NCBI GenBank assembly: GCA_031282935.1 | Contig: JAITCS010000217.1 | Location: forward strand, 1 to 19,572 | Direction of reading: 5' to 3' | DNA: 19,572 nucleotides | Source: Cellulomonadaceae bacterium | GTDB lineage: Bacteria > Actinomycetota > Actinomycetes > Actinomycetales > Cellulomonadaceae | Part shown: piece by piece, positions 2,174 to 14,198 of the stretch | How the letters are laid out: every line of letters begins with the position of its first letter | Position numbering within the stretch: position 1 is the first letter of the stretch | Position numbers and translations under genes: made by a program | The notes under the pieces: generated by a model | Databases searched by the model: none | Told to the model about the DNA's origin: nothing | Seen by the model: only the letters and a program-made list of their open reading frames with translations

Positions 2174-2869
2174 ATGAAACACAACAAAAAGTTCCATAGC
2201 AAAATCGCCGCCCTCACCGTAGTGGTGGCCAGTTCCCTCCTAGTAGCCGGGGCAGGCACAACCTTGGCCTTGTGGTCGGCGCAAGAACATTTCACCGCCG
2301 GGACGATTACCGCAGGCACCTTGGAAATCACGGGCACCCAAGTCGGCATTTGGGATGTGTCACCCGACCGCATTGGGGGCCAAAACGTGGGGGTCACCTC
2401 CGATCTTCGGGGCCGACCCATCACTGACCTCGCTGCTTGGCGCAAGGTTCCGGGGGACACTATCATGTTCCGCCTCGACGCCACGCCGGTGCTCAGGGGT
2501 GACAACTTGGTCGCCACGCTCACTATTGACGGACTTACTCAACTGATTGAGACCGCTCATCAAATTCCGGGCACTTTCGAGGTGTCGGTCGCGCGGGCGG
2601 GCCAATACCTTTTACCGAGGGTAAATATCGCAGATTTGGCCACCAATTCCGGCTCTGTCAATTTGGGGAATTGGTCACCGGCAGCATCGGGAATTGCAAA
2701 TACCATCGAGATTGACCCTGCGCACCCGAATGTTGAAGTGCGGGTATTCGCCACCTTTGATCGGAATACCACAAACCGTGATGCCGTAAATGCGGTGAAC
2801 CAACTCGCCGGTATGTCCGTTGGCCTACACCAAGTGCGCAGCGGTTCCGCCCACTTTATCACGGGCTAA
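2174..2869 (+). CDS. Alternate-signal exported protein (TasA/camelysin-like, SipW-type signal)
   Basis: A 231-residue secreted protein resembling the actinobacterial 'alternate signal-mediated exported protein, RER_14450' family, which is related to TasA/camelysin. A basic N-terminus (KHNKKFHSK) precedes a hydrophobic core at about residues 11-32, then the ALWSAQ motif (Trp34) and TAGTITAGTLEITG, which mark a SipW-dependent signal. The mature part has the family pattern VPGDTIMFR (92-100), RGDNLVATLTID (108-119), and a late TFDRNTTNRDAVNAVNQL segment that leads to GLHQ. No cysteine or metalloprotease motif is seen, so a structural subunit is more likely than an enzyme. It is the first gene of a run that includes a matching signal peptidase and a sortase. 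The Shine-Dalgarno sequence before the ATG is weak. Export class is well supported; the fibre-subunit role is inferred. Confidence 0.85.
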   Translation: MKHNKKFHSKIAALTVVVASSLLVAGAGTTLALWSAQEHFTAGTITAGTLEITGTQVGIWDVSPDRIGGQNVGVTSDLRGRPITDLAAWRKVPGDTIMFRLDATPVLRGDNLVATLTIDGLTQLIETAHQIPGTFEVSVARAGQYLLPRVNIADLATNSGSVNLGNWSPAASGIANTIEIDPAHPNVEVRVFATFDRNTTNRDAVNAVNQLAGMSVGLHQVRSGSAHFITG

Positions 2870-2884
2870 AAGAGGGCTAAAAGA
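2863..2884 (+). repeat. Tandem 11-base direct repeat over a stop codon
   Basis: GGGCTAAAAGA occurs twice head to tail (2863-2873 and 2874-2884). The first copy contains the TAA stop of the first exported-protein gene, and the second repeats a TAA in the same local context. It looks like a recent small duplication and leaves the protein unchanged. Confidence 0.75.
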
Positions 2885-2904
2885 CCAATTACGGCTCATA
2901 TCAT

Positions 2905-2916
2905 ATAAGGAAAAAG
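2905..2916 (+). promoter_or_regulatory. Ribosome binding site supporting the GTG start at 2921
   Basis: An AAGGAAAAAG stretch lies just upstream of the GTG at 2921. It supports this start for the Fn3-like protein, whose hydrophobic signal begins a few codons later. Confidence 0.6.
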
Positions 2917-2920
2917 ACTA

Positions 2921-4399
2921 GTGCGTCTTAGAAATAAACTAACCCTAATCAGTGCAGTGTTCGGACTATCCCTGGTGGGTGGCATAACTCACGCAATGTG
3001 GTCCGACGCTGTGGAGTTCTCCGGAACCACCGTCAACCTGTCCATCCGAGTGCCCGTCGCGCCGAGCGCCCCGACCCCAGGGGAGGTCAGTGCCTCCACA
3101 ATAGCGGTCGTTTGCCCGGCCGTACCCGAGGCTGACTATTATGAAATTCAGCTCGCTAGCGACGCTGAGTTCAGTCAAAACGTGCTCACCGTCGAAACCC
3201 CCAATGGGGAGTACACCTTTACGGGCCTCAACCCGAACACCAAATACTTTGTTCGGTGTCGGGGCGCGAATGCGGGCGGGGCGGGTGCCTGGTCGCCAGT
3301 GGTCGAAATGGGCACCAAACCGGCAACGCCTTCCATCAAACAGACGTCGGTCACCACAACCTCGTGGAACCTCACCTGTGAAGCGGCGGGCGGTGCCGAT
3401 GGGTATGTCATCGAGTTGGCGACAACAGCCAATTTCGCCACGATTGCGCACACCGCCAACCAACAGTCCGCAAACTTTACTGGGCTTAGCGCCACCAGTG
3501 CCTATTACGGCAGGTGTAAGGCAAGCAACTCGGCCGGTTCGTCGGATTATTCTGCTTACATTTCGATCCCGGCGCTGCCTGCCAGCCCAACGCTTTCAAC
3601 CACGGCATTGTCAAGCACAGCCTGGTCGGTGTCTGCCTCGACAGTCGCGGGGGCGACCTCGTACATAATTGACCGCGCCACATCGTCGGCCTTTACTTCT
3701 GTGACCACAGTCAATGCGCAAACCGCCGCTTGGACGGGCCTTACCGCGTCGCAGGCGTATTATGCGCGAGCCAGGGCCGAGAACTCCCGAGGGTCCTCGC
3801 CGTACTCAACCACCTTAAGCATCCCGGCGCTCCCGGCGACCCCTGGGGTGCCAACCGCCACAAATGTCACCACCACGGGATTCACTGCGACGTGCCCGGA
3901 TATCGCTGGGGCGAAAACCTATGTGCGGTACTCCACGAGTTCCACCATGTCAAACGCGTCGGCATGGGCAACCAGCCCGATGACTTTCAGCGGTTTGGCC
4001 AGCAATTCGACCTATTACATTCAGTGCGAAGCTACAAACGGCAGAGGCACGAGTGTCGGCTCCAGCGCTTCGGTGACAACTTTGGTAGTGGCGATAACTG
4101 CAACGCCCGGATTCAAGTATTACGGCACCTCGACCCAGTTGGTGTGTACAGACAATAACAGCGACGCGTATGTGGTTCTCGCGGCCAGCGGCTCGAAACC
4201 GGAGGGTGCCGAATGTGGTTGGGAGTACCAACTGCGCGGCTATTGGGATCCGAATGGCTATGTGAACGTGGCACCGGGAGCCATGACGCACCCGCTGTAC
4301 TGCGAGTTCCAAGCTCGCGCGCGGTGGTTCATCGGCACCAACTTTGGGCCGTGGTCGCAGCTGTGGGGCCGATACGCACCGGAACCGGGGTGCGTTTAG
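2921..4399 (+). CDS. Exported multi-domain fibronectin-III-like protein with SipW-type signal
   Basis: A 492-residue secreted protein. Residues 1-27 form a signal of the same alternate type: basic MRLRNK, hydrophobic core, then HAMWSD with Trp27. Four Fn3-like modules of about 85 residues follow (roughly 48-134, 135-218, 220-303, 305-388). Each has an aromatic/Trp strand, an xFTGL-type turn and a YYxRCxAxN-type strand. Linkers are short and Pro-rich (IPALPATP). Modules 1, 2 and 4 each carry two cysteines (65/113, 153/199, 325/369), while module 3 has Ala at both places. The C-terminal 100 residues form a separate domain with four cysteines (409, 432, 461, 491) and many aromatic residues; I do not recognise it. 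No sorting signal or TM tail is present, so it is probably released or held by partner proteins. Adhesion or matrix function is an inference from Fn3 architecture and operon context. Confidence 0.82.
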   Translation: MRLRNKLTLISAVFGLSLVGGITHAMWSDAVEFSGTTVNLSIRVPVAPSAPTPGEVSASTIAVVCPAVPEADYYEIQLASDAEFSQNVLTVETPNGEYTFTGLNPNTKYFVRCRGANAGGAGAWSPVVEMGTKPATPSIKQTSVTTTSWNLTCEAAGGADGYVIELATTANFATIAHTANQQSANFTGLSATSAYYGRCKASNSAGSSDYSAYISIPALPASPTLSTTALSSTAWSVSASTVAGATSYIIDRATSSAFTSVTTVNAQTAAWTGLTASQAYYARARAENSRGSSPYSTTLSIPALPATPGVPTATNVTTTGFTATCPDIAGAKTYVRYSTSSTMSNASAWATSPMTFSGLASNSTYYIQCEATNGRGTSVGSSASVTTLVVAITATPGFKYYGTSTQLVCTDNNSDAYVVLAASGSKPEGAECGWEYQLRGYWDPNGYVNVAPGAMTHPLYCEFQARARWFIGTNFGPWSQLWGRYAPEPGCV

Positions 4400-5091
4400 T
4401 GAGCGCTAACATTCTAGTGGGGCAGCGGGTCAAGCGGCGCCAGGCTGCGCGAACAGAGAAGATTCCAGTGATTCCCAAACGTTCCAGTTGCTGCTGCCGT
4501 CGCAAACCTGCCGTGCGGTGGAATTGTGCCGTGAACCCGCGCCGGTTTGGGCGGGTGCTGTTGAAGTGGCTGCCCAGGGCCGGGCTGGGCCTGGTCGCGC
4601 TCGGTTATGTGGTGGCCTTCCTGGTGCCACAGATGTTAGGGGGCGTTGGGCTCACAGTGCTCTCCGGCTCGATGGCCCCGAGCATCCGGGCTGGCGATGT
4701 GGTGGCGGTGCAACTCAAAGAGGCTGAAAACGTCTGCGACAGCATCACCGAAGGCGACATTATCACGTTTATGCCCTATCCAAATAACCCACTCTTGGTG
4801 ACGCACCGCGTTATTTCGGCAGCGATTGGGCAATATGAAGGCTGGAATTGCCAGTTCATTACCCAGGGTGACGCTAATTCAGCGCCGGATGAGCCCGTGC
4901 TCCCGAACCAAATTAGAGGTCGGGTGATGTATTCCGTGCGGTGGGCTGGCTGGCTCGACCATTGGGCGGGCGCAAACCGGGATCGAATACTAATAGCCGT
5001 AGTAGTTATTTCACTCGGTTGGCTCGGTTATGAACCCACGAAAAGAATCATAGAAAGAAAGCGCGGGCAGCTAAATGCAACGCCGTCATAA
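4399..5091 (+). CDS. sipW: Signal peptidase I, ER/SipW type (Ser-His dyad)
   Basis: A membrane-bound signal peptidase of the SipW/archaeal/eukaryotic subtype. VLSGSMAPSIRAGDVV carries the nucleophile Ser91, and LLVTHRVISA carries His136 in place of the Lys of ordinary bacterial enzymes. The later FITQGDANSAPDEPV and IRGRVMYSV match conserved boxes D and E. Membrane segments are predicted at about residues 58-80 and near 195-215, followed by a basic tail. The start is GTG at 4399, sharing one base with the TAG of the preceding gene. The frame is open further upstream but overlaps the Fn3 gene, and later GTGs (4468, 4516) remain possible because no strong ribosome binding site marks any of them. 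The N-terminus before the first TM is unusually long, with a CCC cluster (31-33). Next to substrates with A-x-W signals, it is probably their dedicated peptidase. Confidence 0.9.
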   Translation: MSANILVGQRVKRRQAARTEKIPVIPKRSSCCCRRKPAVRWNCAVNPRRFGRVLLKWLPRAGLGLVALGYVVAFLVPQMLGGVGLTVLSGSMAPSIRAGDVVAVQLKEAENVCDSITEGDIITFMPYPNNPLLVTHRVISAAIGQYEGWNCQFITQGDANSAPDEPVLPNQIRGRVMYSVRWAGWLDHWAGANRDRILIAVVVISLGWLGYEPTKRIIERKRGQLNATPS

Positions 5092-6172
5092 ACTAAAACT
5101 ATACCCAAAAAGAACCAAGTATCTTGTCGCTATCGTAACTAGTGTGTTTCTGTCGGCGGTAATTGCGCCCCCCGCCCAGGCCCGACCGTTCGCCGCCAAC
5201 GACAACTACCTGCGGGCAACCCTCGGAGCGCAAACCATCGCCCTGGATTGGGCCGGAAACCAAGTCGCTAGCCCCGGTGGTGACACGATTGTCGGGGAGC
5301 GGGTGCTCATCCCAGGCGACCGGATTTTGCGCACGATTGACGTGGTGAACGCCGGGCCGACCGATGCGGTGCTTTCCGCAGCGCTCACTCTGATTCCTGG
5401 TGGCCGCCGCGATTCGGCAGGTGAAGAGGACTTCGCGCAGGCTGTGCAGTTCTTTTGGGCGCTCGCGGCGGGCGGCAGTTCGGGAGGTAATAGCGCTGGT
5501 ATCGCCAATATTACTGGCACCGCCCCCGTTGGCGAATTGCTGGCAGATAGCGGGGTATTCCTCTCGAATGTGCTCGCGCCACGGGGGAAAGTGAACCAGT
5601 TGACCGTGGGAATCGAATTACCAGATTCCATTAACGACCATTTTGCTGGAGCATTGCCAAACTTTGCGCTGACAATTAGTTTGACCGATCCAACTCCAGA
5701 ACCTCCCTCTATCCTGCCACCTCCCGGTAATCCGCCCAGCAATCCTCCCAACAACCCTCCCAACAATCCGCCTAGCAATCCGCCCAACGGAGGTGGCCCC
5801 AATGTTGGTAACGGCTGGCCGGGGCCGGGCCAAGGTTCCGATTTCGATACGGGTGGCGGGTATCAACCTGGCAATCAAAGCAATGGGCCAGGTACTGGAA
5901 ATCCCTCCGACTCATCGGATGTTGGTGCTAGCGGAGCGGGTGGCCCGTCCGTGGGCACAACCGGCGGCGGCGCAGGTAGCGGCCAGGGGTCAAGCGGTGA
6001 CGGCAACGGCGACAGCCACGGCAGCGGCGCTTCGGTAGCAGGTGGACCCAGCTTGGCTGCCACAGGTGCGGAACTAACCTCATGGGTGCTCATTATCGGT
6101 GGGCTTATTTCGCTGTGGGTAGCAGCTTTTCTGATTAGGAAACCTCGGAAGCAAAGTACAGAAAGAACCTAA
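5075..6172 (+). CDS. LAATG cell-wall-anchored stalk protein with TasA-like N-terminal domain
   Basis: A 365-residue surface protein whose ATG lies 17 bases inside the signal peptidase gene, implying translational coupling. It has an ordinary Sec signal (hydrophobic residues about 16-31, likely cut after APPAQA near 36). Residues 38-205 form a beta-rich domain with LIPGDRILRTIDVVNAGPTD (78-97), similar to the PGD strand region of TasA/camelysin-like proteins. Next come PPG, five NPP[S/N] units (219-238) and a Gly/Ser/Asn-rich stretch to about 320, which would act as a wall-spanning stalk. The C-terminus is a full sorting signal: LAATG at 327-331, a hydrophobic helix and a basic tail (RKPRKQSTERT). 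LAxTG is the motif preferred by class E sortases, one of which is encoded two genes downstream. It probably anchors the other locus products to peptidoglycan (inference). Confidence 0.85.
   Translation: MQRRHKLKLYPKRTKYLVAIVTSVFLSAVIAPPAQARPFAANDNYLRATLGAQTIALDWAGNQVASPGGDTIVGERVLIPGDRILRTIDVVNAGPTDAVLSAALTLIPGGRRDSAGEEDFAQAVQFFWALAAGGSSGGNSAGIANITGTAPVGELLADSGVFLSNVLAPRGKVNQLTVGIELPDSINDHFAGALPNFALTISLTDPTPEPPSILPPPGNPPSNPPNNPPNNPPSNPPNGGGPNVGNGWPGPGQGSDFDTGGGYQPGNQSNGPGTGNPSDSSDVGASGAGGPSVGTTGGGAGSGQGSSGDGNGDSHGSGASVAGGPSLAATGAELTSWVLIIGGLISLWVAAFLIRKPRKQSTERT
5729..5788 (+). repeat. Tandem 12-base repeats encoding NPP[S/N] units
   Basis: Five consecutive 12-base units encode NPPS, NPPN, NPPN, NPPS, NPPN. 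Codon variants (AAT/AAC, CCT/CCG/CCC) differ between units, so the array is partly decayed. Unit number could vary between strains. Confidence 0.8.
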
Positions 6173-6175
6173 ATA

Positions 6176-7078
6176 ATGACCAGACATTTACGCGTTGTGA
6201 ATAGCGCTATCAGAAAACCACGCAAACGGATAAAGGTGGTAGCCAGTGCCATATTGGCTGCTGGGATAATCGCCGCAACAGCAGGTTTTGGAACCACAGG
6301 AGGTGATCTCGAAACAACAGCAGGCGGATTCGGGGGCGCGGCGGGCGGATTCGGGGCCTCGGCAGGCAGATTTGGAGGATCAAGAGCCGGAATCGGGCCA
6401 AACCTCAACCGTGCAACCTTCGCAAACTGGCGCGACCAAACACGATTTACGCCAGCAGCAATTACCGCAGGCGACTTTGGCCTCACTAGAAATAGTGACT
6501 CTCAGTTTTATCGCCTCGATCATAACGGCGCCACCACACTAATTGCAGGTGCCGAGCTGACCCGAGGTGACCTGGTTACCCCAGGCACCTTGCTCTTTCC
6601 GGGTGACACCATCGCGGCTGTTCGCGATGCCAGCCTCAAGCTGGACGGCGGCAACCTAATTGGGCGGTTGCGGATACAGTTCGATTCAGATCCTTGTCCC
6701 GCCGGGAACATCTTTCATTGGGCAGTTCGGGCGTACCAGAGCCAGCAGGCTATCCCGCTCTCGAATAACCAGGTTAGGCAAACCAGTACCGTCCCCGCGC
6801 ATGGGGTCATCGCATATTTCACCTCTGATCCGGAAAGTCTCCAAGACATATCGGGAGTTCCGGTACACCTTGCATCGCGGGAAGCGAACATTCGGGTTCT
6901 TGTCACCGCTACGATTGACGAGGCGGCTCGGTATGTTGGCACCAAAGCAATGCCAGCGGCCAGATTAGTGCTGGAACAAGTGCGGGCGGGCAGCGGATTC
7001 GCTACCTATCAAGACGACCTATCAGCATGGGCGGGGCAGCCCGACCAAATCAACCCCGCTCGATGCGCGGTGAGCTAG
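6176..7078 (+). CDS. Third TasA-like exported protein with Gly/Phe-rich insert
   Basis: A 300-residue protein, probably exported. Its long basic N-terminus (RKPRKRIK) and hydrophobic segment at about 20-38 resemble a signal or anchor. Unlike the first exported protein, it then has a low-complexity stretch at about 41-73 with repeated GGFG, GGFGA and GRFGG units. Only after that comes RATFANWRDQTRF (Trp85) followed by AAITAGDFGLT, the counterpart of the ALWS...TITAG motif. FPGDTIAAV (121-129), LDGGNLIGRLRI (136-147) and the late VLVTATIDEAARYVGTKAM part match the TasA-like pattern. Two cysteines (164, 298) could form a disulfide. The ATG is 3 bases after the preceding stop, and its own stop abuts the sortase ATG. 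It is a diverged paralogue of the first exported protein. Whether the signal peptidase cuts before the Gly-rich insert, after it or not at all cannot be told. Confidence 0.75.
   Translation: MTRHLRVVNSAIRKPRKRIKVVASAILAAGIIAATAGFGTTGGDLETTAGGFGGAAGGFGASAGRFGGSRAGIGPNLNRATFANWRDQTRFTPAAITAGDFGLTRNSDSQFYRLDHNGATTLIAGAELTRGDLVTPGTLLFPGDTIAAVRDASLKLDGGNLIGRLRIQFDSDPCPAGNIFHWAVRAYQSQQAIPLSNNQVRQTSTVPAHGVIAYFTSDPESLQDISGVPVHLASREANIRVLVTATIDEAARYVGTKAMPAARLVLEQVRAGSGFATYQDDLSAWAGQPDQINPARCAVS
6310..6396 (+). repeat. Gly/Phe-rich low-complexity coding repeat
   Basis: Imperfect repeats of GGCGGATTCGGGG-like units (for example near 6323 and 6344) encode GGFG motifs. They are inserted between the hydrophobic segment and the Trp motif of the third exported protein. 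Confidence 0.65.
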
Positions 7079-7894
7079 ATGACCGAATTGCAGCACAGGC
7101 GATTCAGGATCGCTATCTTTCTGGCGTTGCTATGTGGGGTCGCGGGGTTGGGAGGCGTAGGGTTAGGTTGGTGGCATTTGTTTGGCACCTCAATCCCGGC
7201 TGCACAGTTTGTGGGCGCCGCGATCTCGACTTGGCAGGCGGAGCATGGCGTCGCCGAAGTGCCCGCCACGGTGGAACCCGCGCACTGGAGAACCGATTTC
7301 GCCGCCCTGGATGCGGTGACGCAACAGGTTCCACTCAAAGATGGGCAAACTTGGGGTCTGTTGCACGTGCCGTCCTGGGCCGCTCGGGGGCGGGCAACCA
7401 TGCCCATCAAAGCCGGAGTCAGCGACTCGGTGCTGGCCACTGGAGCAGCCGGTTGGTATCCCGAAACCGCTAAGCCGGGTCAGCTTGGGAACTTCGCGTT
7501 GGCCGCCCATCGGCGCACCCGAGGCAATTCATTTCGCCACACCATTGACTTAGTGCCGGGCGATGACTTTGTGGTGGTTGAGCAGGGCGCGGCTTGGATG
7601 AAATTCACCATATCTGCGCAAAGAATCGTAGCGGCAACCGAGGATCAGGTGCTGTTACCAGTGCCCGGCATTCCCGGTGCCGAAGCGTCTGAGCGCCTCA
7701 TCACCTTGACCACCTGCGGGGACGCGAACGGCGGCCAATGGGGGAACACCCACCGCGTGATCACCCACGGGGTGCTGACCGGCTGGCTGCCCCGCCTAGC
7801 CGAGCACCCCGGCAGCCGCTCGCCGCCGCCAAGTGGCGCTGCCCTGCCCACGGGAGGCGCTGCAACACCGCAAGTTCCAGTGGGCGTGGGGTAA
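7079..7894 (+). CDS. srtE: Class E sortase
   Basis: A 271-residue membrane-tethered transpeptidase that links sorting-signal proteins to peptidoglycan. One N-terminal TM helix lies at about residues 10-31. The catalytic domain shows GWYPETAKPGQLGNFALAAHRR with His144, LITLTTC with nucleophile Cys213, and NTHRVITHGVL with Arg226. The Y-P-x-T...PG..GNF.LA.HR pattern is typical of class E enzymes of high-G+C actinobacteria, which act on LAxTG signals. The protein two genes upstream ends in LAATG, so substrate and enzyme are paired. A Pro-rich tail follows residue 243. The ATG directly abuts the TAG of the previous gene, and this is the last gene of the locus. It could also serve other LAxTG proteins encoded elsewhere. 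Confidence 0.92.
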   Translation: MTELQHRRFRIAIFLALLCGVAGLGGVGLGWWHLFGTSIPAAQFVGAAISTWQAEHGVAEVPATVEPAHWRTDFAALDAVTQQVPLKDGQTWGLLHVPSWAARGRATMPIKAGVSDSVLATGAAGWYPETAKPGQLGNFALAAHRRTRGNSFRHTIDLVPGDDFVVVEQGAAWMKFTISAQRIVAATEDQVLLPVPGIPGAEASERLITLTTCGDANGGQWGNTHRVITHGVLTGWLPRLAEHPGSRSPPPSGAALPTGGAATPQVPVGVG

Positions 7895-7999: not shown

Positions 8000-8698
8000 A
8001 TGGGGGTAGCGATTTGCGTGGCGATGGATTCCGAGGCCGCGCCGTTTCGGGAGCTGGCGGTAACGTGCAGCGCTGAAACGGTGGTAGGCCAGGCCAGGTT
8101 TCAACGCCTGACTTTCGCGAAGGGCACCGAAGCGCTGCTGGTCATTTCCGGCATCGGCCTGGTGAATGCGGCGGTGGCTGCCAGCACTGCGGTGCAGCAA
8201 TTCGGGGCCGATATTCTGGTGAGTTCCGGCAGCGCTGGGGGAGTCGGCAGCGGCGTGAAGGTAGGTGACGTGGTGATCGGAAACGAAGCCACTCACTCTT
8301 TCGCGGACGCCACGGCCTTCGGCGAGTATGTGGTGGGGCAGATCCCAAGAATGCCGCCAACATACCTCTCCAAAACCCCTTTAGCCGGTGTCGCAACGGG
8401 GCTGGAAGCCGAAATGAAAATCCATCGCGGCCCCGCCATATCCGGGGACGCTTTCGTTTCGGCGCACAATTTTGATGCCGTCACAAAAAATTTCCCTACC
8501 GCTTTAGCAGCAGACATGGAAACAGCAGCCATCGCGCAAGTGGCTCACCTTTTTGGTATTCACTGGTTGGCCGTGCGGGGTATATCTGATTTGTGTGGCC
8601 CCGCAGCCGCCGACGATTTCGTTACTCATGTTGATGACGCTGCCGCTCGTGCCGCTGCTGTGGTTATCGCATTGTTAGGTGCTAAGGTAAGTAACTAA
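8000..8698 (+). CDS. mtnN: 5'-methylthioadenosine/S-adenosylhomocysteine nucleosidase
   Basis: A 232-residue cytoplasmic nucleosidase that hydrolyses methylthioadenosine and S-adenosylhomocysteine to adenine plus the thioribose product, clearing by-products of methylation and polyamine synthesis. All key residues are present and fall at the same numbers as in the E. coli enzyme: Glu12 (AMDSE), Glu174 in ADMETAAIAQVA, and Asp197 in RGISDL. SSGSAGG (75-81) forms the phosphorylase-fold glycine loop. Length is normal for the family. The ATG at 8000 lacks a ribosome binding site and sits just after a -10-like box. The gene ends 25 bases before pfkA on the same strand, so the two may share a transcript. 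A futalosine hydrolase is the main alternative; the conserved Glu/Asp set and length favour MTAN. Confidence 0.88.
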   Translation: MGVAICVAMDSEAAPFRELAVTCSAETVVGQARFQRLTFAKGTEALLVISGIGLVNAAVAASTAVQQFGADILVSSGSAGGVGSGVKVGDVVIGNEATHSFADATAFGEYVVGQIPRMPPTYLSKTPLAGVATGLEAEMKIHRGPAISGDAFVSAHNFDAVTKNFPTALAADMETAAIAQVAHLFGIHWLAVRGISDLCGPAAADDFVTHVDDAAARAAAVVIALLGAKVSN

Positions 8699-11620: not shown

Positions 11621-12085
11621 ATGCGCACCAACGAATATCCGCAAGCGCGTGTGAATAAGATGCCATTGTTGGCGCCACTGCGCAGCGCTATGCAGCAAAA
11701 CGATCCGAATTATCAGTTCCAGCCTGCCAAGTTTTTCCAGTGGCGCAAATGGGTTATCTCTATCGTTGCGGTGGCCGCAATGTTTGGGATTGCCGCCGCC
11801 ATTATCAACCTAAGCCCCCGCCAGGATCCCATGCTGGCAATGCTGACGGGCGCGCGCCCATTCATGGCCACTTACGCCGAGTTAGCGAATAGGGGATACT
11901 CGCCTTGGCTGCCGCAATGGGAAATCGGTTCCGCTCCGGTTCAGATTCTTATTCTTGTGCTGGTTTTACTGGCCGTGGGCGGGTTCGTGGTCGCTAAGTA
12001 TCGCAGCCGCAAAGCGGAAACGCAGTGGACGCAAATCGCGCAGGCTGCTCGCGAGGCAAAAACCGGCGCCTCGAATCTCTCCTAG
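11621..12085 (+). CDS. Small two-helix membrane protein, function unknown
   Basis: I do not recognise the family. The start is taken as ATG 11621 because AAGGGG (11608-11613) lies 7 bases upstream; ATG 11615 and TTG 11588 are in frame but fit less well. The 154-residue product has a polar N-terminus and a TM helix around residues 36-52 (WVISIVAVAAMFGIAAAI). An outside loop of about 50 residues follows (DPMLAMLTGARPFMATYAELANRG...), then a second helix at about 107-125 (VQILILVLVLLAVGGFVVA) and a basic, Gln/Ala-rich cytoplasmic tail. It has its own promoter after the rpsA terminator. Its TAG overlaps the stop codon of the converging coiled-coil gene within one CTAG. Confidence 0.7.
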   Translation: MRTNEYPQARVNKMPLLAPLRSAMQQNDPNYQFQPAKFFQWRKWVISIVAVAAMFGIAAAIINLSPRQDPMLAMLTGARPFMATYAELANRGYSPWLPQWEIGSAPVQILILVLVLLAVGGFVVAKYRSRKAETQWTQIAQAAREAKTGASNLS

Positions 12086-14130
12086 AGTTCCTCGCCCTCA
12101 ATCTCCGCGATTTGCGCCAGATCAGCAGCGGAAACCCGAGCGTCTTTCCCTAACATTCCGCGCAACTCGTCCAGGTAAGTCTTGATGGACTCCTGCTTGC
12201 GCGAGAGGTCCTCGAATTGGCGTTGCGCCGTGGAGCGTTGCGCCTCAGACTCGGCGGTGGCATCAGCGAGCATCTTCTCGCTTTGCTGCCGAGCCTCCCC
12301 GATGATCCGCTCGGACTGCCCGCGAGCTTCAGCAATGAGGGTGCGAACGTATTCATCAGCGTCGGCGCGCACTTTCTCGGCGTTAGCGAGGGCCTGGGCC
12401 ACCCGCAACTCAGCCGCCGCAGCGTGCTCGTTCGCGTTGCGGATGATGGCGTTGGTTTCGGTCTTGGATTTCTCATGCCGAGCCGCAGCTTCCTGCTCGG
12501 CGGCGTCGAGGCGCGAGGCGGCTTGGGTTTCGGCGGCAGCAATCTGCAGACGCACCTTTTCTTGCCGATCAAGCAGCTCTTTATCAGCGGTGGCGTTCTT
12601 GGCGCTGGCGGTGCGTTCGGCCTCGGCGAGCACGTTCGCGGCCCGCGATTCGGCCTCGGCGACTTTGGCAGCCGCTGCCCGGTCAGCTTCGGCAATCCGA
12701 TCGCGCGCTTGCTCTAGCAGGGCAGCCGCTTGGTTCTGGGTTTCGAGCAGTTGGGCGCGGGCGGCCTCTTGCCGGGCGTTGATTTCATTGTCGGCTGCCG
12801 TGATGCGCTCGCCGATGTTGGCCTGGGTTTCGTGCACAATGCGCCCGACCTCAGTGTGGGCGGCTTGCAGCTTGGTAGCCGCCTCGGTTTCGGCCTCTGC
12901 CAAGCGGTTGCGGGCGGCCTCGTCAAGGCGCCCGGCCTCAGCTTGGGCAGCCTGAATCCGGGCAGACGAGGCGGCGTCAGCATCGGACATTTTCACCCGC
13001 GCGGCCTCAATCAGTTCCGCCGATTGGGTGTTTGCCGCCAAAATCTTAGCGTTTGCCTCAGCTTCGGCACCCGAGATTCGTTGCCGTGCGGACTCCAAAA
13101 TCTCAGAGGCTTCCGCCACGGCTGATTGCATCTTGGTGGCGGCAACCGTTTCGGCCTCCGCTAACCGCGTGCGGGATGCCTCATCGCGTGCCGCGATTTC
13201 TTTATCCGAGGTGGCCGTGGCTTCCCGAATGGCCTCTTGGGTGGCCGTGGTGACATCAGCGGCCTCTTGGTGGGCGCTGGAAACAAGGTTGTTGGCGTCC
13301 CGCTCGGCGTCTGCCAACATCTGGCGCACCCGCCCTTGGGCGTTGGCGACCTCAGCATCGGCAGCCGAAATTCGATCCGTGGCCGTGTGCTGGGCCTCCG
13401 CGACCAAACGGGCGGCCTCTTGGCGCGCATTTTCCATTACGGCGGTGGCGGTTTCCTCGGCCTCGCCCTTGAGCGCGACCGCTGCCGCTAAGGATTCGCT
13501 TTGCTGTTCAGCAATGGCAATCCCGGCCGCCTGGCGATTCTCGGCTAGTTCCTTTTCTTGCGCAGCCCTAGCGGCGCTCAGTTCCCGCTCGACGCCCGCC
13601 CGGTAATCCTCGATCTCCGTTTTGGCAGTCGAACGCATCATCGCTGATTCTCGTTCGGCTGAGGCCACCAATTCTTCGGCGCGCTTCTGGGCGGAGGCCA
13701 ACGTGCCCTGCACCTCAGCCTGGGCGGTGGAGCGGATATCCTCGGCAGCTCGCCGGGCGGTCGCGATCTGGTCGGCGGCCGTGTTCTCGGCCCGCGTGCG
13801 CGTTTGCTCAGCGGTTTCTTGGGCCCGCACCAGAATCTCAGCGGATTGCTGATTGGCTTGGGTCAGCACCTCAGAGCTTTGTTCCTCAGCGGAGCGCAGC
13901 AGTTGTTCTACCCGCGAACCCAAGCCGGAGTAGGACGGGCGATCATTTTCGGCGATCAGAGCCCGTGCGGCAGACAGCTCAGCTTGCAATCCGAGCACGC
14001 GCGCATCAGCAGCCTCAATTTGGCGCCGCCGTTGGTCGTCTATCTTCTCGAAGCGGGCGAACTGCTGATCCACCTGCACCCGGTCATAGCCGCGCATGAC
14101 GATTGGGAATAACGTACGCTCTTCGACCAC
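12082..14130 (-). CDS. DivIVA-domain coiled-coil protein (Scy-like cytoskeletal element)
   Basis: A 682-residue, almost wholly coiled-coil protein rich in Ala, Glu and Arg. Near the N-terminus LFPIVMRGYDRVQVDQQFARFEKI matches the DivIVA-type domain that binds curved membrane and helps organise polar growth or division in actinobacteria. A SYSGLGSRVEQLL linker follows, then about 550 residues of helix with an internal repeat of 29 residues (see repeat entry). The C-terminus (YLDELRGMLGKDARVSAADL...) is acidic. Architecture resembles Streptomyces Scy/FilP-like proteins. The start is GTG 14130: GAAAGG lies 6 bases upstream and a good promoter lies 40 bases upstream. The longer frame from TTG 14172 would begin inside the -10 box. 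It is transcribed away from the next gene and converges on the small membrane protein gene. A role in polar or septal scaffolding is inferred. Confidence 0.82.
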   Translation of the reverse strand: MVEERTLFPIVMRGYDRVQVDQQFARFEKIDDQRRRQIEAADARVLGLQAELSAARALIAENDRPSYSGLGSRVEQLLRSAEEQSSEVLTQANQQSAEILVRAQETAEQTRTRAENTAADQIATARRAAEDIRSTAQAEVQGTLASAQKRAEELVASAERESAMMRSTAKTEIEDYRAGVERELSAARAAQEKELAENRQAAGIAIAEQQSESLAAAVALKGEAEETATAVMENARQEAARLVAEAQHTATDRISAADAEVANAQGRVRQMLADAERDANNLVSSAHQEAADVTTATQEAIREATATSDKEIAARDEASRTRLAEAETVAATKMQSAVAEASEILESARQRISGAEAEANAKILAANTQSAELIEAARVKMSDADAASSARIQAAQAEAGRLDEAARNRLAEAETEAATKLQAAHTEVGRIVHETQANIGERITAADNEINARQEAARAQLLETQNQAAALLEQARDRIAEADRAAAAKVAEAESRAANVLAEAERTASAKNATADKELLDRQEKVRLQIAAAETQAASRLDAAEQEAAARHEKSKTETNAIIRNANEHAAAAELRVAQALANAEKVRADADEYVRTLIAEARGQSERIIGEARQQSEKMLADATAESEAQRSTAQRQFEDLSRKQESIKTYLDELRGMLGKDARVSAADLAQIAEIEGEEL
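12820..13167 (-). repeat. Four tandem 87-base units encoding 29-residue coiled-coil repeats
   Basis: Residues 322-437 (GTG-start numbering) divide into four units of exactly 29: they begin RLAEAETVAATK, RISGAEAEANAK, KMSDADAASSAR and RLAEAETEAATK. A further unit, RIAEADRAAAAK, occurs at 478-506. Twenty-nine equals two hendecads plus a heptad, a plausible coiled-coil period. Confidence 0.75.
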
Positions 14131-14170
14131 GATGAGCCTTTCAAATATCCAAGCCGCTGCTGCGCTTCGC

Positions 14171-14198
14171 AAAATAACGGGCGCCGTCGGTATGTCAA
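14171..14198 (-). promoter_or_regulatory. Promoter of the DivIVA-domain gene
   Basis: On the minus strand TTGACA (14198-14193), a 16-base spacer and TATTTT (14176-14171) form a good sigma-70-type promoter. Transcription would begin near 14164, ahead of the GTG at 14130. Confidence 0.6.

Follow-up and report, generated by a model that had tools for sequence, protein, structure and literature searches.

The stretch of DNA analysed here (the window) comprises 19,572 nucleotides of an uncultured Cellulomonadaceae bacterium (assembly GCA_031282935.1, contig JAITCS010000217.1), and the question raised by six open reading frames on one of its strands, genes A–F at 2174..7894, is whether a SipW-type signal peptidase, its putative exported substrates, a wall-anchored protein, and a sortase serve as one fibre-building system. 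A preliminary description, made from the letters alone, had proposed such a self-contained surface-fibre locus; its six genes, their positions and single strand, and the gaps of 51, −1, −17, 3, and 0 between consecutive frames were confirmed exactly, with GTG as the start codon of genes B and C. Promoter and terminator scans gave a signal no better than that of shuffles. On balance, we read the locus as a form, with its own sortase, of a TasA-type (donor-strand) fibre module found repeatedly in Cellulomonas, Microbacterium, Leucobacter, and other actinobacteria related to them.

Signal peptidase and exported proteins

Gene C (4399..5091, + strand, 230 aa, GTG start) scored 79.5 bits against TIGR02228, archaeal-type signal peptidase I (cut-off 51.85), and 59.6 bits against the Bacillus SipW equivalog NF046067, missing its cut-off of 190. 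All 8 SipW proteins that were aligned share residues S91, H136, and D158, the Ser and His being the catalytic pair. The family score and the retained S91 and H136 point to the SipW-type Ser-His peptidase with A-x-W substrates that had been proposed, and A-x-W, or a diverged form of it, was found in each of the three proteins for which it had been claimed.

Gene A (2174..2869, + strand, 231 aa) has an alternate-type signal with ALW at residues 32–34 (2267..2275, + strand) and belongs to TIGR04089 (exp_by_SipW_III; 68.3 bits, above the NCBIfam cut-off of 60). Gene B (2921..4399, + strand, 492 aa, GTG start) combines AMW at residues 25–27 (2993..3001, + strand) with four fn3 stretches (78.7 bits over the four against PF00041), in keeping with the Fn3-like substrate first described; it stayed below the 19-bit cut-off of TIGR04088 (17.3 bits), was matched by nothing except itself in a phmmer search of 113 loci at E 0.001, and is probably an exported, fibre-associated protein. 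In gene E (6176..7078, + strand, 300 aa), a diverged TIGR04089-like protein, the displaced motif is ANW at residues 83–85 (6422..6430, + strand), about 40 residues downstream of the hydrophobic stretch because a Gly/Ala-rich insert lies between them, and the roughly 19 residues after it are, by eye, in register with gene A. E scored 26.6 bits against TIGR04089, under the cut-off of 60 and so as a relative only, 62.9 bits against a profile built here, and 3e-12 against relatives by phmmer.

Structure prediction, which the preliminary description had proposed, gave modest TasA-like matches for the 231- and 365-residue proteins, A and D. The AlphaFold2 model of gene A (mean predicted local distance difference test score, pLDDT, 77.2) had the TasA fibre 8aur_A at Foldseek rank 1, a modest match at E 3.5e-4, and its top four matches were all fibrous or tubular structures outside the cell (TasA, bundling pili, and CanA twice), making A a predicted donor-strand fibre subunit. 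For gene D (mean pLDDT 65.7, with ten-residue blocks of 64–93 across residues 71–210), TasA stood at Foldseek ranks 1, 4, and 13 and at VIA ranks 1–2, again as modest matches. The TasA/camelysin family PF12389 matched none of A, D, and E at E ≤ 1, and matched B weakly (0.06). The TasA-like substrates of the preliminary description thus stand, weakly, as a predicted fold for A and also for D, but not as a PF12389 sequence match, and the locus, tested for membership and found outside the TasA Pfam family, is assigned to the SipW/TasA kind for the way in which it would work. From fold prediction, it is reasonably likely that A and E are donor-strand fibre subunits. Modest fold matches, the commonness of beta-sandwiches, the fn3 nature of B, and the large CSLREA-type protein that many relatives have in their cluster would also suit a locus without any fibre, in which separate beta-sandwich surface proteins or adhesins share one export route and D is the wall-bound member; with fibres or tubes outside the cell filling all of the top four Foldseek places for A, this account is considered unlikely.

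Predicted wall-anchored protein and sortase

Gene D (5075..6172, + strand, 365 aa) has, in order, a predicted TasA-like domain (about residues 50–208), a Pro/Gly-rich linker, the sorting motif LAATG at residues 327–331 (6053..6067, + strand), one membrane helix, and a basic tail. Motif, helix, and tail agree with the wall-anchored stalk that had been proposed, but D would be more than a stalk, its N-terminal domain being predicted TasA-like. Searched against profile libraries, D scored over the cut-off of no family, and comparison of the A-family profile with that of the D family (alignment of 50 rows) gave a 22-column match alone (85%), so that there is no firm sequence homology between the two families. 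When the D profile was run against a protein database, low-complexity words swamped the search, and of the two rows returned one was the window's own D; the D domain of locus L135 as query returned seven proteins, the four named ones all ‘hypothetical protein’. A recognisable anchor was found in 51 distinct D proteins (26 LAxTG, 16 LPxTG, 9 others). Behind the sorting helix, 18 of these 51 (L135, L142, L149, L156, and others) have a CxxC-n-CxxC tail, presumably cytosolic, unusual in a sortase substrate, and a possible zinc ribbon; the window's own D is without it.

Gene F (7079..7894, + strand, 271 aa) is a class E-like sortase with Y127, H144, C213, and R226. It scored 76.2 bits against PF04203 (cut-off 26.6), with H144, C213, and R226 as the His, Cys, and Arg, and 140 bits against the class E model NF033747; class E, to which it had been assigned, is its best class by far (next class 38.6 bits) and the Tyr is kept, but the score lies under the curated cut-off of 160. 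Y127 (GWY) aligns with Y229 (GHY) of SrtE1, the Tyr of the beta3/beta4 loop, which PMC5148588 proposes as the selector of Ala in LAXTG. F agrees in this with the LAxTG type of motif carried by D, and the earlier pairing of an LAATG anchor with a class E-like sortase was upheld. Judged from motif, residue, and operon, F probably sorts D.

A sortase together with several exported subunits and a peptidase-like protein recalls streptococcal pilus islets, and F would then join subunits as in class C pili. The sorting motif was found by eye in D alone, and F scored 23.6 bits against the class C sortase model (cut-off 160), as against 140 for class E; on the single sorting signal and the class C score, a sortase-polymerised pilus was rejected as very improbable.

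Among 50 sortase domains placed in a tree, F paired with a sortase of genome G007 (support 0.996) whose neighbour is another protein with an LAATG tail, up to 890 residues long, and the two sortases grouped with further sortases of the genus (support 0.865 and 0.84). A scan of viral contigs with F found no relative. F had matches in 191 of 200 family genomes, which tells no more than that sortases of this sort are general in the family.

Recurrence in relatives and insertion site

Sixty regions (5 from the window's genome, 55 from relatives) were analysed, nearly all picked by a SipW or TIGR04089 hit and two contigs of the window's genome by a sortase, together with 52 further named loci picked by SipW alone, of one subtype. 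With the window, this gave 113 loci and 97 distinct SipW genes; genes were called by a simple script, and profiles were built here. A TIGR04089-like gene lay within four genes on the same strand for 83 of the 97 SipW genes (directly upstream in 76), a D-domain gene near 59 (directly downstream in 47), and both accompanied 57, with two more SipW fused to a D domain; the SipW-TIGR04089 pairing is inflated, since the regions were chosen by those hits. In the named loci, which come mainly from Cellulomonas, Microbacterium, Leucobacter, and relatives and hold 49 distinct SipW, 45 had a TIGR04089-like gene and 41 a D-domain gene (one fusion included). The module was also found in four Propionibacteriaceae metagenome-assembled genomes (MAGs; L165, L169, L170, L174), and a Chloroflexi MAG (L185) with SipW genes only, four of them in a row, was counted as SipW. 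The grouping is more than chance, with relatives of A, C, and D clustered in many other genomes. Both SipW-D fusions are single open reading frames, one with LARTG (L180:9980-11167, + strand) and one with LAKTG (L097:8232-9419, − strand). We take them as a sign that the peptidase and D work together, irrespective of the fibre's behaviour.

In a larger set, found for 33 of the 97, a protein of about 955 residues is joined by two TIGR04089-like proteins, an A-x-W protein in the middle, SipW, and D. The large protein looks exported, begins with a CSLREA-like stretch that scores below cut-off, and is matched by no Pfam family (e.g., L135:4562-7429 and L134:4150-7023); in many relatives its gene stands first in the module, and the window lacks it. 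Within the window's own genome (1.5 Mb in 228 contigs, 66% complete, the window being contig C70), other pieces of such clusters are SipW with a D protein on C200, SipW with TIGR04089 on C56, TIGR04089 on C3, and a weak D match on C94. A different genome, G002, held nine TIGR02228 matches (one weak) and ten TIGR04089 matches (L079–L083), an expansion of the system in the genus.

Across 59 relative genomes, the D domain was present in 15, all within the 23 having TIGR04089 (Fisher 1.2e-8, kinship ignored); 22 matched the D profile, of which two partial matches (G011 without TIGR04089, G034 with it) and five anchor-only matches were left out. A phylum-wide draw of 396 genomes, with the best six candidates per genome scored (eight in a companion run), gave 57 matches to the D profile, of which 3 counted over the domain and the rest were mostly linker plus anchor; the 3 genomes with a full D domain were all of this order, and TIGR04089 was found in 4 including those 3.

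A sortase lay within 10 kb of SipW in 3 of the 97, as far as contigs reach, several SipW contigs being shorter than 7 kb and limiting this count: in the window, in L079 (at 5.2 kb, separated by a gene on the opposite strand), and in L085 (on the opposite strand). Inside the operon, it was found in the window only. The profile used for these counts recovered seven prior hits and the known L100 sortase (20 bits). A sortase was present somewhere in 59 of 59 relatives, and in 42 of the 43 genomes from which 50 of the 52 named loci come. Since it is so seldom nearby, and in the operon here only, the sortase looks like a local addition to the module. Of the co-occurrence that the preliminary description had expected, the company of SipW, TIGR04089, and D was borne out, but the six-gene set is not kept in relatives, where the sortase is rarely near and B is unmatched. 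In L085 (genome G004), a pilin-like set made up of an LPLTG protein, a sortase, and an LPVTG protein lies convergent to the SipW-D pair. In L084 (G004:C24), from the same genome, a TIGR04089 gene at the contig end stands near two sortases and LPxTG proteins; having no SipW on the contig, this locus was left out of the 97.

The nearest precedent for a sortase beside such a module is the sipW-bsaABCRSD cluster of C. perfringens, which likewise has SipW, a secreted polymer-forming substrate, and an adjacent sortase gene, srtB (PMC7395162). As told in that source, srtB was dispensable, with no role in polymerisation, and the authors saw nothing like an LPXTG motif in BsaA; in the present locus, by contrast, a matching LAATG protein sits between SipW and the sortase. 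The dispensable sortase is a fair warning about function read from adjacency and, with the sortase not conserved alongside the module, weighs against a covalently held fibre. Both points would fit two unrelated functions, a soluble TasA-like matrix made through A, B, C, and E, and D displayed by F without fibre contact. D, however, tracks SipW in position and in the two fusions and is itself predicted TasA-like, and such a division of the locus is judged improbable.

The locus is flanked by polA, uptA (PF04018), pfkA, and rpsA, with the uptA-like undecaprenyl phosphate translocase gene (979-1932) just upstream of the block. Ten other genomes of the genus have uptA; eight of these regions were fetched, and the same frame of genes was found in six, with uptA alone visible on the other two contigs. 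The uptA-pfkA interval was 2.5–2.7 kb in the six relatives versus 6.8 kb here, and in those six it contained no SipW, TIGR04089, D, or sortase; the whole block is read as an insertion between uptA and pfkA, absent at this site from the six. A nucleosidase gene (PF01048, window 8000-8698), found in 2 of 10 other genomes of the genus at E ≤ 1e-20, may have arrived together with the block. A 696-residue coiled-coil-like protein (window 12082-14172, − strand) has weak DivIVA/Wag31 similarity, far below cut-off.

Known systems and proposed mechanism

Like the tapA-sipW-tasA operon of B. subtilis and sipW-tasA/calY/capP of B. cereus, the locus sets a SipW-type peptidase beside secreted proteins that are TasA-like in predicted fold, with a candidate accessory protein for the base. 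In Bacillus this protein is TapA, described as a strand-donating chaperone (PMC10151520), or CapP, with a C-domain that ‘appears to anchor’ the protein to the surface, in a system described as sortase-independent (PMC13082335). Unlike these, the accessory protein D joins a predicted TasA-like domain to LAATG, and the operon includes a sortase. The ‘amyloid-like’ fibres of the preliminary description are a dated notion, since cryo-electron microscopy is reported to show TasA as donor-strand fibres (PMC9674648). F resembles the SrtE1/E2-chaplin class E display of S. coelicolor (PMC5148588) in best-scoring class, LAxTG signal, and conserved Tyr, and differs from it in staying under the curated class E cut-off and in being linked to a SipW module. 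Structure matches of A and weak profile matches also relate the locus to bundling pili, AbpX, and CanA cannulae, which, unlike it, are archaeal. To our knowledge, these three have no sortase. The parts are known; their combination was not found among the papers listed in searches of the open PMC subset of the literature.

In the proposed mechanism, C would cleave the A-x-W alternate signals of A and B, a step that family and motif make highly probable, and perhaps that of E; A and E would form the fibre, and B would decorate or cross-link it. D, exported by an ordinary signal, would act through its TasA-like domain as base or nucleator, in the place of TapA or CapP, and F would cut D at LAATG and link it to peptidoglycan, so that fibres growing from D would be tethered by covalent bonds. 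The work of F would fall, in relatives, to a sortase encoded elsewhere, and here one of a genus-specific lineage would have been recruited into the operon. Whether D is the covalent base is an even call. It is proposed more tentatively still that actinobacterial TasA-type donor-strand fibres are covalently rooted in peptidoglycan through a base that is a TasA-fold subunit encoded beside its SipW and in two cases fused to it, here with a sortase of its own and, where present, a CxxC tail that could report sorting of the base to the cytoplasm.

Bacillus and archaea are known to have fibres of the TasA type. If the sortase-equipped reading is true, a covalent, wall-held fibre of this type would join two surface-assembly routes so far treated as separate, and the module of Microbacterium, Cellulomonas, Leucobacter, and relatives would gain a testable function, with this small locus making a sharp prediction, that D should be found in the wall fraction in an F-dependent manner.
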